A DNA stretch of 64,000 nucleotides from Bacilli bacterium (lineage in GTDB: Bacteria; Bacillota_I; Bacilli_A; ML615J-28; CAG-698), in assembly GCA_017450215.1 (NCBI GenBank), contig JAFSVH010000063.1, positions 1 through 64,000 of the forward strand. The letters run 5' to 3'. How positions within the stretch are numbered: position 1 is the first letter of the stretch; each line of letters begins with the position of its first letter. The notes under the pieces were generated by a model. It ran no database searches, was not told where the DNA came from, and saw only the letters and a list, made by a program, of their open reading frames with translations. The position numbers and the translations under genes are program-made. This document shows, piece after piece, positions 19,955 to 63,960 of the stretch.

Positions 19955-20031
19955 AACATCAGTTCAAAACGAGATTTTTTATTTTAAATTCAAAAACTAA
20001 AAAGAAACCCTAAATAATAATTGAATAAAAA

Positions 20032-20062
20032 AAGCATATGTGCATTTTTCGCACATATGCTT
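20032..20062. terminator. Bidirectional terminator between convergent genes
   Basis: AAGCATATGTGC and GCACATATGCTT form a perfect 12-bp stem with a 7-nt loop. A-run and T-run flanks can serve the reductase (plus) and the membrane protein at 20187 (minus). Confidence 0.85.
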
Positions 20063-20186
20063 ATTTTTCGTTCATATTTATCACAATAATATTTATTAAG
20101 TTCATTTTAATTCATTATAAATTCAACCCTCTGACAAAGCCCAAATTCACCATTTATTAAAAAATCATTACGACTTCATCATATAT

Positions 20187-56844: not shown

Positions 56845-56849
56845 ATATG

Positions 56850-56878
56850 TTGACATCTCATTTGCTTAGTGATAAAAT
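56850..56878 (+). promoter_or_regulatory. Strong promoter of defence pair 2
   Basis: Consensus TTGACA, a 17-nt spacer and TAAAAT, then GGAGG at 56891 and the ATG at 56904. It is one of the best promoters in the window. Confidence 0.75.
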
Positions 56879-56903
56879 GTATTTAGATATGGAGGAAAAT
56901 AAT

Positions 56904-58025
56904 ATGCTTATTGGTTTTTCTGTTGAAAATTATAGAAATTTTAAAGATAAGGTTACTTTAAATTTTGAAAATGTACATGATTATGAATATAATAAACAAT
57001 GCATTAAAAACGGTCTACTTAGCAAAGCAATAATATATGGTGCCAATGCTTCAGGAAAAAGCAATTTTGGCTTTGCTCTTTTTGATATTGTTGGTTTACT
57101 TACAGACAAAAATACACATTATTGTCAAAACGATGAACAAACATTCGTTAATGCAGATTCTGATTCAGATGTTGCAACATTCGAATATGTCTTCAAAAAC
57201 AAGAAAGATACAATTACATATTTGTATAAGAAAAAAAGCCCTAAAATTATTACTTATGAAGAATTAGTAATAAATAAAAAAAGTATTTTTTCATATGACT
57301 TTGAAAAAAGGAATTTCATTCAAATTGATTTGAAGGAAATTCATGCTGAAAACGCTAATTTCAATTACTTTGAAAATAATTTTGCAGTTCTAAGATATAT
57401 AGCTAATAATACAAGTCAGCCAGATAATTCACATGTTAAGTTCATCATGAACTTTGTTTCACATATGTTATGGTTTAGAACTCTACAAGAAAATGGATAT
57501 ATTGGCCTAATTTCAGGTAGTGAAAATGTGAATCAATGGATTTCAAACAATAATTTAGATAAAGAATTTCAAAAGTTTTTATTAGATTTAGCAAACATTG
57601 AAATTAATTTAGATATCGTTGATTTACAACAACCAATAAAACAAAAGTTTTTAGTTGAAAAACACAAGAAAGGTGTATTTGCTTTTGATCAAGTTGCTTC
57701 TAGTGGATGTAAAGCATTAGAACTATTATTTTATTGGACTAAGCGATTTAAAGATGTTTCATTCTTATTTATGGATGAATTTGATGCATTTTACCATTTT
57801 GATTTAGCAAGAAATGTTGTAAAGTATATTAGCGAATTTGATAATTTACAAGCAATTATGACAACACACAATCCATATTTAGCAAGCAATGAATTATTAA
57901 GACCTGATTGCTATTTCATTCTTGAAAATTGCAAATTAACTTCTTTTGCTGATAGCACTGAAAGAGAATTGAGAGAAGGTCATAATTTAGAAAAAATGCT
58001 AAAAAACGGAGAATTCAATGGGTAA
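56904..58025 (+). CDS. AAA ATPase of AAA_15/AbiLi type (defence pair 2)
   Basis: The 373-residue protein starts MLIGFSVENYRNFKDKVTLN, has Walker A GANASGKS (46-53), SSGCKALELLFYW, FLFMDEFDAFYH as Walker B and AIMTTHNPYLASN as the switch. This N-terminus is the signature of AbiLi/RloA-type ATPases found beside a small nuclease. The ATG at 56904 follows GGAGG by 8 nt. It overlaps the next gene by 8 bp. It is distinct in sequence from the ATPase at 21810. Confidence 0.9.
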   Translation: MLIGFSVENYRNFKDKVTLNFENVHDYEYNKQCIKNGLLSKAIIYGANASGKSNFGFALFDIVGLLTDKNTHYCQNDEQTFVNADSDSDVATFEYVFKNKKDTITYLYKKKSPKIITYEELVINKKSIFSYDFEKRNFIQIDLKEIHAENANFNYFENNFAVLRYIANNTSQPDNSHVKFIMNFVSHMLWFRTLQENGYIGLISGSENVNQWISNNNLDKEFQKFLLDLANIEINLDIVDLQQPIKQKFLVEKHKKGVFAFDQVASSGCKALELLFYWTKRFKDVSFLFMDEFDAFYHFDLARNVVKYISEFDNLQAIMTTHNPYLASNELLRPDCYFILENCKLTSFADSTERELREGHNLEKMLKNGEFNG

Positions 58026-58788
58026 AAATGTTCTTCTTATTATAGAAAGTGATTCAGACGAACCAAAATTCTTTGATAAATTATTTTCTAAATGTAATAG
58101 AAAAGCAAAATATAAATTCTATTCTTATAGAACTACTATTCATATCCTATCACAAGAATTATATAATAATTATCCTGACTTTGATGATGGGTATATTGAT
58201 ATTAAACTAATTTTGGCCTCATTAGAAAAAGATGAACAGAAAAAGGCACTTCTACTTTCTCAATACTCTGATATTTATTTAGTTTTCGATTTTGAGCCAC
58301 AGCATGATCATCCTCATTTTGATACAGTAAGAAGAATGATTGCATATTTTAACAATTCCACAAATCAAGGTAAATTATTCATCAATTATCCAATGATGCA
58401 ATCTTATAAACATTTTGATAAATTACCATGCCCTAATTATGAATTTCTAAAAGTAACTTTAGATGAAATTAAAGATTATAAAAGAATAGTTGGCGAATTT
58501 AGTAACTATACTGATTTAAATACATATGATTATATATTTTTTTATAGTATTACTATTCATAATCTAAAAAAAGCAAATAAGTTATTTGGGGATAAATATG
58601 AAATCTATAATGATGAAAAATATGTGAAACGTGACTTCACTAACATTTTTGATTATCAATTGCAGGCTCTTCAATGTAAAGAAATAGTTTATGTACTAAA
58701 TACATGCATTTTTGCTTTAATTGATTTTGCTCCTAAAAAATTCTTTTCATTCATAGAAAAGCATAGAACTTTTTTACTAATTGATTAA
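58018..58788 (+). CDS. AbiLii/RloB-like partner (defence pair 2)
   Basis: The 256-residue protein starts KNVLLIIESDSDEPKFFDKLF, a TOPRIM-like first motif with Glu, then SDIYLVFDFEPQHDHP (acidic DxD-type site) and INYPMMQSYKHFDKLP, a phrase common in ATPase-linked abortive-infection partners. It would cleave or modify nucleic acid upon phage infection. Coupled by overlap to the ATPase and followed by a strong terminator, it forms a complete two-gene module. Confidence 0.75.
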   Translation: MGKNVLLIIESDSDEPKFFDKLFSKCNRKAKYKFYSYRTTIHILSQELYNNYPDFDDGYIDIKLILASLEKDEQKKALLLSQYSDIYLVFDFEPQHDHPHFDTVRRMIAYFNNSTNQGKLFINYPMMQSYKHFDKLPCPNYEFLKVTLDEIKDYKRIVGEFSNYTDLNTYDYIFFYSITIHNLKKANKLFGDKYEIYNDEKYVKRDFTNIFDYQLQALQCKEIVYVLNTCIFALIDFAPKKFFSFIEKHRTFLLID

Positions 58789-59262: not shown

Positions 59263-60126
59263 TTAACAATACTCAATTAAATCTATACTACTAATAAATA
59301 TATCTTTATTAAAAGAATTAAAAAGTATGTCATTACCAAATATAAATGGAATAATATCTTTTTTTGCTTCTTCAAAATCAATAGAATTAAATCTATCAAA
59401 AAGCAATTCTTTTAATTCTATTATTGTTAATTCATCTTTTTCCAAATATCCAAATCTCTTTAATCCACTAATCAAAAAATCTTTATTAATTTTAGCTCCT
59501 TTATAAATATAAAATAAATAATCATAAAAATCTCTACCTTTAATTCTATTTTTCCAACCACGATTTAAAACAGCAATTAACTTTGATGCAAATAAAGTTT
59601 CTATTTTGAATATTCTAATTTGTGAAAGAGAAGGATATGTTAATAATTTGAACTCAGTTTCACCACCACTAAAGCACTTAGTTTCAATTTCTACTTTTAT
59701 AGATAATACTTCATTATTAATTATTTGATTAGCATATTCTTTATAACTAATTTCAAACAAGTGCTTCATATTAAATCTGAAATATCTTGATAGGACTGTT
59801 GAATCAACATTCTTATCTTTATTATAAATATTATAATCTATTAATAAACTATCTAATTCTATTTTTGCTAAAGAGATATATTTATCAAAATCAAATCCTG
59901 ATATTTCTTTAATTAACATAAAATCTAATCCATCAGAGAATCTAGTTAGATCCCTAAAAATTCTAAGAGATGTACCACCATAAAATACTGCATATTTAAA
60001 GAAATCAGTTTTACCAAATCCTGATAAAATCACTTTTTGCAATGTTTCTTTCATCGCATTTTTAATTTCGTTAATATTTCTAGGATTTAGTCTTTTCACT
60101 TCATCAAAGAATAATGTATTAATCAT
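59263..60126 (-). CDS. AbiEii-type nucleotidyltransferase toxin
   Basis: The 287-residue protein has FYGGTSLRIFRDLTRFSDGLDFML at about residues 48-71, the AbiEii motif GG(T/S)xLR...RxSxDLDF with Gly replacing the first Asp-side residue, KIETLFASKLIAVLNR and GRDFYDYLFY. In AbiE systems this DNA polymerase beta-type NTase modifies tRNA and causes bacteriostasis. The ATG at 60126 follows GAGGAG by 7 nt; a GTG at 60141 lies in that site. It overlaps the antitoxin by 8 bp. Confidence 0.88.
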   Translation of the reverse strand: MINTLFFDEVKRLNPRNINEIKNAMKETLQKVILSGFGKTDFFKYAVFYGGTSLRIFRDLTRFSDGLDFMLIKEISGFDFDKYISLAKIELDSLLIDYNIYNKDKNVDSTVLSRYFRFNMKHLFEISYKEYANQIINNEVLSIKVEIETKCFSGGETEFKLLTYPSLSQIRIFKIETLFASKLIAVLNRGWKNRIKGRDFYDYLFYIYKGAKINKDFLISGLKRFGYLEKDELTIIELKELLFDRFNSIDFEEAKKDIIPFIFGNDILFNSFNKDIFISSIDLIEYC

Positions 60127-60712
60127 ATAACTTCTCCTCACTCAACATATTAGCAAACATCGATACATTTCTAGAATGATATAGTGGAGCTAATTCACTC
60201 ACTATATTCTTATCTAATGTATCTAATATCATCTCATTAATCCTTAAATCTTCAAATATTAAAGCTCTCATGTCCTTCATATTTTGCATTGGTTTAATTT
60301 TATATAACATATCTAATAAAGCTTTTTCTTTTGTTGCCATTTTATATACATAACCATTAACATTAATTATATCTACACCATATGGGAATACTTGTTTAGG
60401 TACATCTTGATACATATATAAACCAAACATAGTATGATATTCTTTATTCTTCCTTTTATTATATGTTGCATTAGTAATTGCATATACTCTTTCAGGAATC
60501 AATTCATGAAAAGATAATGCACTTTCAAATGAAATATATGATGGAGAATAAATAGGATCTGCTAAATAATATCTTTCAACATCTTTATTAGTTTCATATA
60601 ATCCTTTTGTAATTGGATATATTTCTTTATTAGTTACCATTCTTTGAATCTTAGTTTTAGGATTCTTATAATTCTTTAATTCTTCTAATAACATTTGATA
60701 AGTCTTTATCAT
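60119..60712 (-). CDS. AbiEi-type antitoxin
   Basis: The 197-residue protein has a winged-helix N-terminus (IQRMVTNKEIYPITKGLYETN), YISFESALSFHELIPE, and MATKEKALLDMLYKI, all standard in AbiEi/DUF6088 type IV antitoxins. It would repress its promoter and counter the toxin. The ATG at 60712 follows TAGGTGGTG; the frame also has an ATG at 60733 within the promoter palindrome. Unlike the copy at 23186 it is intact. Confidence 0.85.
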   Translation of the reverse strand: MIKTYQMLLEELKNYKNPKTKIQRMVTNKEIYPITKGLYETNKDVERYYLADPIYSPSYISFESALSFHELIPERVYAITNATYNKRKNKEYHTMFGLYMYQDVPKQVFPYGVDIINVNGYVYKMATKEKALLDMLYKIKPMQNMKDMRALIFEDLRINEMILDTLDKNIVSELAPLYHSRNVSMFANMLSEEKLYD

Positions 60713-60725
60713 ATTTTCACCACCT

Positions 60726-60744
60726 AGTATCATTATACGATACT
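60726..60744 (-). promoter_or_regulatory. AbiEi operator/promoter
   Basis: The minus-strand -10 TATAAT (60737-60732) lies inside the inverted repeat AGTATC / GATACT. AbiEi proteins bind such repeats, so this is a likely autoregulatory site. The -35 is weak. Confidence 0.6.
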
Positions 60745-60878: not shown

Positions 60879-62753
60879 TTATTCGTAAAAATCTTTTACT
60901 TCTTTTTCTAGATAATCTTTATATGGACTAACTACTTCTTCCCATGTTTTTGTAACACTTTCTCTTTTCATATATGAAATCATATCAGTTTTAAATGGAT
61001 GAACATAACTAGTAGATTGCGTACAAGCTGAAGCAACAAATGGGTCAATAATCCCATCTTCTCCTAATCCACCAATAAAGGATCCATCTTCTTGCTTTTC
61101 ACCTAACATAATTTTCATATATACTTTAACTGAAGCTTCGCTAGAAAAATTATTATTAGCAATTGCTCTTATTTTTTCTTCATAATTATAGCCATCACTT
61201 GCTTCATAATATTGCTTTGAAGTATTTAAGTAATCCATATATATTCTATATATATTTTCAGTTGTGCAGTCATCACCATAATCCTTATATGCCCATGATC
61301 TACCACTTGACATTACAAGGCTATCTGTTGTTGAAAGGGCGAATAAACTTTCTTCATTTTCAGTTGGGAATGGAACAAAACCTAATTTTGCATTATTATC
61401 ACTCCAATACCTCTTATTAAAATATGTATCATTACTAACATCAGCTACTTGTGCGACACTAAACAAAGCTAAACCATCAGACCAATATTTAGAATTAAAT
61501 GCTAATTCAAAATCAGTATCCATTGCACCAGCTAAAGTAATATCTCTCAATGCCTTTGCTGCTTTTTGTTGAATCAAACCATCCATGTTAGCACTTAGAC
61601 CAACTATATCAAAAACCTTAACACCACTAGCATTAACTAAACCACTCCACAAAGCAAGAGCACCACCAGTTAATGCATAATAAGATTTACTATCAGTATT
61701 AAAACTATTTAATATATTTTGAACTTTAATACAATATTCTTTAAATGTATCAAAGTTCCAATCTCCATCTAAATACATTTGAGCAGGTTCTTTAATACTA
61801 GGATCTTTTTCTTTTATCTTTTCAAATAATCCAAGATTATAATATAGAATATTATCCATATTTAATGCTCTTTCATTAATTGTATATAATTTATCTTTAT
61901 ATGTTCCAGAATTAATAGAAACTTTATTCATATAATTATTGCCATATAAATTATAAAAATCAGTTAAATCAAGTAGTGCTCCTTCTTTCACAATAGTTGG
62001 AATAATAGAATCTTGAATTACATAAAAATCATATTCAGCTTTTTCGTTTTTATTTTCATTAATAATATAATTCCATCTTTGAGGACCCCATGGTGCATCA
62101 TCAGGATATGCAACATAAGCTATCTTACAATTATATTTTTCTTCAATATCTTTAATAGCTTTTATTTTATATTCTCTATCATCTTTATCATAATAATATT
62201 CATTTTCAGTCTCTTTACCAAGTCTTGCATCATAAACACCTAGAGAATGCAAAGATTGAGCTATTTTAATTGTATATCCTTTTAAATCAATCTTTACTTC
62301 TTGATTCAATACCTCAAAATCAAATGATTCAGTTTTCTTAACACCTGATATTTCATAGGTAATAGTAATACTAGCATTTCCAACTTTCAATGCTTTAATA
62401 TTACCATTATCATCAATAGAAAGAACATCAGGATTATCGCTTGTAAAAGTAGGATTAACATTTTCCCACTTTAACAATTCAACATCATCATATTTATCAC
62501 TAGGATAAAGAACTTTTGATAAATTATATTCATCACCGACATATATCTTGCTATCACAATCAAAGCTTAATTCATAATAAGCATCACTATAATCATGCGT
62601 AGAATCTCTATCATCATTATCATCATCCTTATTATGATTATCATCATTTACATTATCATGCTTTTTATCATCATTTATATTCTTATCTTCACAACCAACT
62701 AGGCAAAAAATAAACAAGAATAAAAATAAACCAAATATGATTTTCTTCATCAT
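60879..62753 (-). CDS. Extracellular solute-binding lipoprotein with BIG2 domain
   Basis: This lipoprotein of about 624 residues has a lipobox LVGC (about residue 20). An Asp/Asn/His/Lys-rich linker follows (about 25-55), then a BIG2-type Ig domain (about 65-148: FTSDNPDVLSIDDNGNIKAL). The rest is a family-1 type solute-binding protein (from about 150: YTIKIAQSL, DFYVIQDSIIPTIVKEGALLDL, YKDKLYTINERA). It probably binds an oligosaccharide, but no permease gene lies in the window. GAGG precedes the ATG pair at 62753/62750. Confidence 0.85.
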   Translation of the reverse strand: MMKKIIFGLFLFLFIFCLVGCEDKNINDDKKHDNVNDDNHNKDDDNDDRDSTHDYSDAYYELSFDCDSKIYVGDEYNLSKVLYPSDKYDDVELLKWENVNPTFTSDNPDVLSIDDNGNIKALKVGNASITITYEISGVKKTESFDFEVLNQEVKIDLKGYTIKIAQSLHSLGVYDARLGKETENEYYYDKDDREYKIKAIKDIEEKYNCKIAYVAYPDDAPWGPQRWNYIINENKNEKAEYDFYVIQDSIIPTIVKEGALLDLTDFYNLYGNNYMNKVSINSGTYKDKLYTINERALNMDNILYYNLGLFEKIKEKDPSIKEPAQMYLDGDWNFDTFKEYCIKVQNILNSFNTDSKSYYALTGGALALWSGLVNASGVKVFDIVGLSANMDGLIQQKAAKALRDITLAGAMDTDFELAFNSKYWSDGLALFSVAQVADVSNDTYFNKRYWSDNNAKLGFVPFPTENEESLFALSTTDSLVMSSGRSWAYKDYGDDCTTENIYRIYMDYLNTSKQYYEASDGYNYEEKIRAIANNNFSSEASVKVYMKIMLGEKQEDGSFIGGLGEDGIIDPFVASACTQSTSYVHPFKTDMISYMKRESVTKTWEEVVSPYKDYLEKEVKDFYE

Positions 62754-62891
62754 CAATACCTCACTATAATAACCTGAATAGCCAACTACATTATATCACA
62801 TTTACAAAGGGATTAAAATTAAAGATTAGCATTTTGTATCATTTTTTAATAGAGAAAGATAATAAATAATAATATTCTTACAGAATAAAAA

Positions 62892-62919
62892 CGGCCCAGC
62901 TCGTTATTGAGTTGAGTCG
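62892..62919. terminator. Imperfect hairpin with T-run between divergent genes
   Basis: CGGCCCAGCTC and GAGTTGAGTCG pair with G-U and one mismatch around GTTATT. TTTTATTTTC follows on the plus strand and TTTTTATTC on the minus strand. No gene on either strand feeds into it, so its role is unclear. Confidence 0.4.
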
Positions 62920-62959
62920 CTTTTATTTTCTTTAACTTTAATCCCTAATTAAATACTTC

Positions 62960-62988
62960 TTTAAAACTTTTTATTATTTTGCTATAAT
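62960..62988 (+). promoter_or_regulatory. Promoter of the leader-RhuM operon
   Basis: TTTAAA, a 17-nt spacer and TATAAT (62983-62988). Transcription should start near 62995, a few bases before the leader ribosome site. Confidence 0.6.
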
Positions 62989-63015
62989 AAATGTAATAAA
63001 AGGAGGTAATCGAAA

Positions 63016-63063
63016 ATGAAAAATCTCATTAAAATAACAAAGCAATTTAACATAAAGACCTAA
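63016..63063 (+). CDS. 15-residue leader peptide
   Basis: AAAGGAGGTAATCGAAA, one of the best ribosome sites in the window, precedes ATG and 15 codons (MKNLIKITKQFNIKT) that end in TAA. The stop codon lies at the base of a following terminator hairpin. The peptide is too small for an enzyme. Its position suggests a translation-controlled attenuator for the RhuM-PLD gene. The composition (Lys, Ile) gives no clear sensed amino acid. Confidence 0.55.
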   Translation: MKNLIKITKQFNIKT

Positions 63064-63089
63064 CTCCATCGTAGAAATACAATGGAGTT
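63062..63089 (+). terminator. Attenuator-like terminator after the leader peptide
   Basis: AACTCCAT / ATGGAGTT (8 bp, 12-nt loop) is followed by seven T (63088-63094), then AAAGGAGG and the main ATG. The 5' arm begins at the leader stop, so a ribosome there would block the hairpin. The CTCC in that arm could also pair with the leader AGGAGG. Confidence 0.65.
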
Positions 63090-63114
63090 TTTTTCGAAAA
63101 AAAGGAGGAAAAAT

Positions 63115-63960
63115 ATGAATATTAAAGAAAAGAAATACGATTTAATAAAATTTGAAGATGGTGATTTTAGTTTAGATGTAAATGTATCACCAAATGAAGA
63201 AACCGTATGGTTAAACGTTCACGATTTGGCACAATTATTTGAACGCGATGAAAAAACGATACGAAAACATATTAATAATGCACTTAAAGAGGAATGTATT
63301 AATTCAACAGTCGCAAAATTTGCGACAGTTCAAAATGAAGGAAATAGAAAAGTTACAAGAGAAATTGAATATTTCAATTTAGATATTATAACTTCCGTTG
63401 GATATAGAGTAAAATCTAAACGTGGTATACAATTTCGTATATGGGCTAACTCAGTTTTAAAACAATATTTATTAAATGGGTATGCAATTAATACTGAAAG
63501 AATTATGGCTTACCAATCTAATATATTACAATTAGAAGCTAATGTGATAAATATAGAAAATAGATTAAAGAATTTAGAAATGACTATATATTCTGATAAT
63601 ACTCAAATTATATTTGAAGGCGAGATATTAGAACCATATACATTTTTAAGAAAACTATTCTTTTTAGCAAGAAATGAAATAACTATAATAGATCAATATG
63701 CAGATAAGTTTTTACTTTCTATGTTATCTGATTTAAAAGTTAAAATATTAATCGTTACTTCTACTTCATCATATTTAAATAAAGAAATAATACCTAATAA
63801 TATAACAATCATTCATAACGATATTATTCATGATAGATTCATCATTATTGATGATTTAGTATATGCAATAGGTTCTTCATTTAATGATATAGGTAAAAAA
63901 AGATTCTTTATGATGAAATTAGAAAATATTACAAAAAAAATGATATTAGAAAATAAATAA
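63115..63960 (+). CDS. RhuM-family protein with C-terminal PLD-like domain
   Basis: The 281-residue protein has a RhuM-type N-terminal part (about 30-135: VWLNVHDLAQLFERDEKTI, YFNLDIITSVGYRVKSKRG, FRIWANSVLKQYLL), a coiled linker (about 140-165) and a PLD-like C-domain (about 195-270: IIDQYADKFLLSML, IIHDRFIIIDDLVYAIGSSF). The DRFIIID site has His-Asp-Arg in place of HKD. RhuM proteins are often mobile or defence-associated. The ATG at 63115 follows AAAGGAGG by 6 nt. Confidence 0.85.
   Translation: MNIKEKKYDLIKFEDGDFSLDVNVSPNEETVWLNVHDLAQLFERDEKTIRKHINNALKEECINSTVAKFATVQNEGNRKVTREIEYFNLDIITSVGYRVKSKRGIQFRIWANSVLKQYLLNGYAINTERIMAYQSNILQLEANVINIENRLKNLEMTIYSDNTQIIFEGEILEPYTFLRKLFFLARNEITIIDQYADKFLLSMLSDLKVKILIVTSTSSYLNKEIIPNNITIIHNDIIHDRFIIIDDLVYAIGSSFNDIGKKRFFMMKLENITKKMILENK

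Follow-up and report, generated by a model that had tools for sequence, protein, structure and literature searches.

A lineage-limited family of probable leader-peptide attenuators upstream of two phage-defence candidate gene families in Anaeroplasma-type Acholeplasmatales

How bacteria silence costly or self-harming defence genes until infection is a largely open question. It is raised in compact form by a locus near the end of the 64,000-nucleotide stretch of DNA analysed here (the window), which stems from a genome of 2.05 Mb on 141 contigs: a short open reading frame (ORF) runs into an intrinsic terminator directly ahead of a gene for a RhuM-PLD protein. Is this arrangement a regulatory leader, and if so, how might it act? 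The elements that an earlier note had described at this locus, i.e. a promoter, two ribosome-binding sites, a 15-codon ORF, a terminator and the start of the RhuM gene, were all recovered in place:

62960-62988, plus strand: promoter TTTAAA-17-TGCTATAAT, with a -35-like TTTAAA, 17 nt and an extended -10 element TGcTATAAT, agreeing with the consensus at 10 of 12 positions
63000-63007, plus strand: Shine-Dalgarno sequence of the leader ORF, AAGGAGGT
63016-63063, plus strand: leader ORF MKNLIKITKQFNIKT, 15 codons, with ATG at 63016 and TAA at 63061-63063
63043-63051, plus strand: core codons CAA TTT AAC, read as Gln-Phe-Asn (family consensus Gln-Leu-Asn)
63062-63094, plus strand: intrinsic terminator with the stem AACTCCATcGTAgaaaTACaATGGAGTT (63062-63089), a GAAA loop and seven T (63088-63094)
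63104-63108, plus strand: Shine-Dalgarno sequence GGAGG of RhuM-PLD, a conserved block in alignment A1
63115-63960, plus strand: RhuM-PLD gene, 281 amino acids, with ATG at 63115

The promoter match alone is uninformative, since 40 promoter-like sites are observed against 34.8 expected from shuffles. The terminator hairpin (-12.0 kcal/mol, z -4.3) was equalled by none of 200 shuffles, and its first two stem bases are overlapped by the leader stop codon. As the upstream neighbour (60879-62756) lies on the opposite strand and is transcribed away from the leader, the terminator is unlikely to be owned by an upstream gene on the same strand. No Rfam family was matched at its gathering score anywhere in the window, and an Rfam scan of 20 loci returned tRNAs, one unrelated fluoride riboswitch and nothing else.

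The leader family and the genes behind it

The same layout was seen upstream of RhuM-PLD relatives at nine loci and also before a DUF1016 gene at G001:C80. This first DUF1016 case was reached via a search for a 16-base motif with one mismatch, a search otherwise swamped by chance matches. R1, a covariance model built for the distal leader, was trained on ten leaders (the seed loci) and searched in 8 named genomes, 60 relatives and 55 genomes of the Anaeroplasma bactoclasticum family, sets which overlap; it matches the window leader at 63040-63108. The search for related leaders by R1 and inspection yielded 57 copies, the window copy included, in 28 Acholeplasmatales/Anaeroplasma-type genomes; as descent and recombination connect these copies, they do not count as independent events. 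The leader and attenuator noted ahead of RhuM-PLD are thus conserved. Leader-bearing genomes make up 6 of the 8 named genomes, 3 of the 60 relatives and 23 of the 55 family members, with up to 6 copies per genome (G069). Two copies (L054 and L236) reside in the cultured type strain A. bactoclasticum ATCC 27112, and the closest relatives at the RhuM-PLD gene itself are found in rumen Acholeplasmatales and A. bactoclasticum.

Membership of weak matches was settled by inspection. Four matches in the 55-genome set (L318, L320, L321 and L292:537-607) score below 45 bits, are leaderless or precede another gene and were dropped, which gives 23 rather than 24 genomes of 55; the alignment A7, with 58 rows, still contains the dropped L292:537-607. 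Four others (L319, L322, L323 and L324; 39.8-41.9 bits) precede RhuM and were retained. In the 8-genome and 60-relative sets, inspection of weak matches covered exactly eight (L240, L243, L244, L245, L246, L248, L249 and L250), all of which were dropped. In the window, a weak R1 match at 20009-20081 on the minus strand (29.9 bits, E 0.007) is probably an ordinary terminator.

As to spread beyond the lineage, 91 loci with other RhuM relatives, among them Bacteroidota, Spirochaetes and copies of RhuM within the same order, produced a single weak R1 match (27 bits, E 0.08), so that the leader module is limited to one lineage as far as searched. Viral spread finds no support in a protein scan of viral contigs, which gave no relative. 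The two leader arms, searched as a DNA pattern, matched 11 viral contigs; these are regarded as chance matches because none of the 11 fits R1. On present sampling, the family thus appears confined to Anaeroplasma-type Acholeplasmatales. In the literature searched, preprints and most subscription papers excepted, we met with no description of a leader peptide ahead of RhuM or DUF1016.

Behind the 57 leaders lies RhuM in 37 cases, DUF1016 in 16 and neither in four, where the RhuM gene is broken, the contig ends, the leader is an orphan or tblastn gave no match. When only R1 matches of at least 45 bits are considered, to which the four retained weaker copies do not belong, 49 of 53 precede RhuM (33) or DUF1016/YhcG (16); with the ten seeds removed the figure is 39 of 43. 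RhuM and DUF1016 are separate Pfam families, and a single module thus serves two phage-defence candidates that are unrelated to each other. Such a leader is missing from many RhuM relatives and the association accordingly runs from leader to gene, not in the reverse direction. Leaders have been exchanged between the two kinds of gene: in G075, adjoining RhuM and DUF1016 genes carry leaders that are 99% identical, and in G077 a RhuM protein opens with first residues typical of DUF1016 proteins.

The window protein consists of a RhuM N-terminal part (Pfam RhuM in the N-terminal half, E 2e-24), a coiled linker and a C-terminal PLD-like domain; PADLOC PDC-S05 covers residues 6-278 (E 3.9e-72). PLD-like phosphodiesterases bear the catalytic motif HxKx4D. 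Here, an HxR with a downstream D is present, with arginine in the place of the lysine, and there is no Pfam PLD match; H239, R241 and D246 are invariant in 15 aligned relatives including the protein of the window. An AlphaFold model based on 15 sequences (pLDDT 82) retrieved PLD nucleases, NucT and Zucchini among them, in Foldseek, and the modelled C-terminal fold agrees with the PLD family. DUF1016 (YhcG) proteins match PADLOC PDC-S02. The earlier remark that control of this kind would suit a defence gene is therefore well taken for both targets, which are phage-defence candidates and not proven systems here.

Conservation of terminator and leader frame

Across 55 distinct sequences the terminator positions are paired in 98.5% of 540 cells, and compensatory changes occur in nine of the ten stem pairs. 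The covariation score was reached by none of 500 shuffles and in slid registers merely 31-59% of the alignment is paired.

Two leader types can be told apart. Type 1 (n=49) has a -10 box with at least 5 of 6 matches ahead of the start in all 49 copies, extended by TGn in 37, and its ATG usually follows the box by 22-29 nt. In type 2 (n=8; genomes G105, G107, G110 and G111) the ATG lies 6 nt past the -10 box in seven of eight, and translation apparently starts without a leader of its own. The ORF comprises mostly 12-23 codons; type 1 spans 12-37, the broken copy L302, which has an early stop, aside.

The frame from the ATG to the terminator foot is open in 54 of 55 distinct leaders, compared with 0 and 1 of 55 for the two alternative frames and an expectation of 10.9 from mononucleotide shuffles. 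This bears on the view that the terminator is a simple insulator, holding expression constantly low, for instance of a toxic gene, with an ORF that is incidental or aids re-initiation at the second Shine-Dalgarno sequence. Terminators before costly genes are plausible, and at the ten seed loci 36-60 nt separate the leader stop from the ATG of the gene behind it. An incidental ORF, however, would neither stay open in this one frame nor retain an in-frame core, and we consider an insulator unlikely.

That core is the tripeptide Gln-Leu-Asn. The first statistics on it used an anchor pattern drawn up after viewing the sequences. When the frame test was repeated with the alignment to R1, whose own training set was ten of these leaders, the core proved to be in frame in 50 of 52 distinct copies, the model-aligned CAA codon being in frame in 44 of 46 of type 1 and six of six of type 2. 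Among the 44 in-frame type-1 cores, leucine is found in 39 (CTT, CTA, CTG, CTC) and asparagine in 43 (AAT, AAC), a pattern of synonymous change with little replacement at these two positions. In the anchor-based statistics, the ratio pN/pS at the core amounts to 0.47 in the true frame and to 1.9 and 2.4 in the others; for the codons upstream of Leu-Gln-Leu-Asn it is 1.04, that is, without purifying selection. L012 and L161 have the conserved nucleotides in a different frame, and the tripeptide is thus not indispensable.

A conserved core and many copies per genome would also be expected of a peptide acting in trans, antitoxin-like or toxin-like, with a terminator that merely ends its transcript. 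Yet outside the core neither sequence nor length is conserved, and the leader's place, immediately ahead of the same two families of genes, argues for action in cis; we regard a trans-acting peptide as very improbable.

Comparison between loci is decisive here, as the layout is found again at 56 further places, with a covarying terminator and an open leader frame. On these grounds the leader attenuator is judged to be real, well supported and far beyond chance, conserved as a unit of leader and terminator, and shared between two gene families.

How the leader may work

Of 56 leaders with a located stop, 51 have it between -4 and +21 nt relative to the foot of the stem; four ORFs extend beyond the hairpin. 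The earlier note had a ribosome on the leader stop block the folding of the terminator. The geometry allows this for 55 of the 56 located stops, while occlusion itself is what we infer. The further idea that release-factor state could be the switch is rejected, since all three stop codons are used (TAA 38, TAG 10, TGA 8) and their position relative to the hairpin is variable.

An antiterminator was sought by comparing the duplex energy of the 5' arm and the upstream leader with shuffles in 56 leaders, and the pairing proved no better than chance (z +0.22); the mean energy is -4.5 kcal/mol for the alternative pairing of the 5' arm and -16.7 kcal/mol for the terminator arms. With no alternative pairing beyond chance, occlusion is favoured over an antiterminator and is the simplest device. 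We therefore think it reasonably probable that the leader is a ribosome-occlusion transcription attenuator placed before phage-defence candidates. The promoter would give rise to a short transcript carrying an ORF of 12-23 codons (a few longer) that enters the intrinsic terminator. If the end of the ORF were free of ribosomes by the time RNA polymerase arrived at the U-tract, the hairpin would form, the transcript would end and the gene would be off. A ribosome following closely and standing at the end of the ORF would cover or open the 5' arm, and polymerase would continue into RhuM-PLD or DUF1016, turning the gene on. Three steps of this scheme are presumed from the arrangement of the sequence: ribosomes translate the leader ORF, they occlude the stem, and occlusion is the "on" state. 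The signal would most likely be a changed speed or recycling of translation during infection or stress. The four ORFs running past the hairpin fit occlusion and do not fit a rule based on stop position. In E. coli, coupled ribosomes have been described to prevent intrinsic termination (PMC5021804).

A possible refinement concerns the tetranucleotide GTTG, which occurs near the leader start or Shine-Dalgarno sequence in 45 of 48 type-1 leaders and is absent from the window copy, L035 and L161. In most copies it could pair with CAAC of the Gln-Leu-Asn codons, and such pairing might allow no ribosome but the first one after the polymerase to translate the leader, which would turn the device into a gauge of how closely the two stay together. 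The predicted hairpin has a mean z of -1.74 against shuffles (45 segments). Partner shuffles yielded no covariation for it and it is therefore kept as a possibility.

The conserved core could alternatively mark a classical attenuator, in which the ribosome pauses at Gln-Leu-Asn, owing to the nascent chain or to a shortage of charged tRNA, with its front edge just reaching the stem foot, so that the pause decides. In keeping with this, the core is retained in frame through synonymous changes, and the distance from CAA to the stem foot is 18-23 nt in 46 of 49 type-1 leaders, the remaining three having 26-29 nt. On the other hand, no run of one regulatory codon was seen by eye in the 57 peptides, two leaders lack the in-frame core, and, as there is no competing antiterminator, the terminator could still fold while a ribosome pauses at the core. 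Inspection of the peptides by eye showed no established arrest motif of the RLR kind. Such a pause is conceivable, though we think it the less likely course of events.

Occlusion as preferred here has relatives among known systems. The trp-type attenuator of E. coli relies on a leader peptide, coupled transcription and translation and an intrinsic terminator. The present leaders share the peptide and the terminator with it, but have no visible run of regulatory codons and no detected antiterminator pairing. The leader of bmrCD in B. subtilis, bmrB, likewise has a small upstream ORF whose coding region contains or adjoins an intrinsic terminator (PMC4191407). There, blocking leader translation is described to lower read-through and the authors favour an antiterminator mechanism; translation-dependent read-through is thus a published feature of bmrB (PMC4191407), while our leader is known from sequence. 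bmrB is reported with 53 codons, predicted antiterminator structures and a drug transporter as its target (PMC4191407), unlike the present leaders with mostly 12-23 codons, no detectable antiterminator and phage-defence candidates as targets. The rli80-hflXr system of Listeria resembles ours in its short ORF (14 codons there) and terminator before a single gene, and a stalled ribosome is stated to prevent termination (PMC6310831). It is described as having an RLR drug-stalling motif and an antiterminator (PMC6310831), in place of which we find a Gln-Leu-Asn core and no antiterminator. RCd22-abiF of Clostridioides difficile is comparable as RNA-level control of a phage-defence gene in the Bacillota (PMC12373285), a control that is presumed in our case. 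RCd22 is, however, described as a protein-binding non-coding RNA (PMC12373285), and the conserved object here is an ORF plus terminator in cis. We regard the present leaders as a new leader-peptide attenuator family that is limited to one lineage and placed before phage-defence candidates; it has no detectable antiterminator and its mechanism is plausible.

A wider reading would make the leader a mobile cassette, with its Gln-Leu-Asn core and ribosome-occluded terminator, that puts unrelated defence nucleases under the control of translation state and thus acts as a shared infection sensor. We advance it tentatively and hold it to be rather doubtful as yet. If it were true, disturbance of ribosomes or tRNAs by phage would free defence genes from premature termination. 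In any case, a short and defined candidate control element is common to two unrelated phage-defence candidates, many genomes and one cultured type strain, and translation state as a trigger of defence genes becomes directly testable with a 150-bp element.

A second structured RNA and further observations

Four RhuM genes without the leader carry a structured RNA of about 180 nt that ends in a terminator. One copy (L326, G000:C99:4533-4711) is located in the window's own genome; further copies are L325, L327-L331, L333-L337, L339-L347, L349, L350 and L352. A model of this RNA, R2, found copies in eight of 40 relatives, with up to 11 per genome. Compensatory changes occur in 16 of 43 pairs (24 aligned copies) and comparison with Rfam gave no match. 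The RNA precedes genes for RhuM-PLD, RhuM-Fic, DUF1016/YhcG, AbiEi, AlbA/Schlafen-like and TnpB-like proteins. It is a second putative riboregulator, unrelated to the leader, and were the shared-sensor reading true, defence genes of the Acholeplasmatales would generally be switched by premature termination.

A further element was noted by eye upstream of RhuM in L009, L010, L047 and L048, where an AT-rich, hairpin-like stretch, GAAATTAAT ... ATTAATTT with a T-run, recurs. Tandem runs of RhuM-PLD genes with truncated copies occur at L171 (G041:C48), L164 (G023:C24), L165 (G014:C2) and L163 (G006:C2), and an ORF in L164 (5043-5906) fuses a DUF1016 N-terminus to a RhuM part; judged by their sequences, these arrays look as if shaped by internal recombination. 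In the type-2 leaders L312 and L315-L317, a difference of one A in an A-run decides between a stop before the stem and read-on, and reflects polymerase slippage or a sequencing error.

The surroundings of the window locus are rich in defence genes: an AbiEi/AbiEii pair (59263-60733) and a two-gene PADLOC candidate, PDC-M12, made up of an AAA ATPase and a partner (56847-58788), lie within 7 kb. Immediately upstream, a 130-bp stretch reaching into the promoter (62847-62976) is 92% identical to G000:C137:23294-23423, in which a small gene, PIN-like by eye, ends and a terminator is located. G000:C29 has a shorter version, and this duplication suggests a past rearrangement upstream of RhuM.
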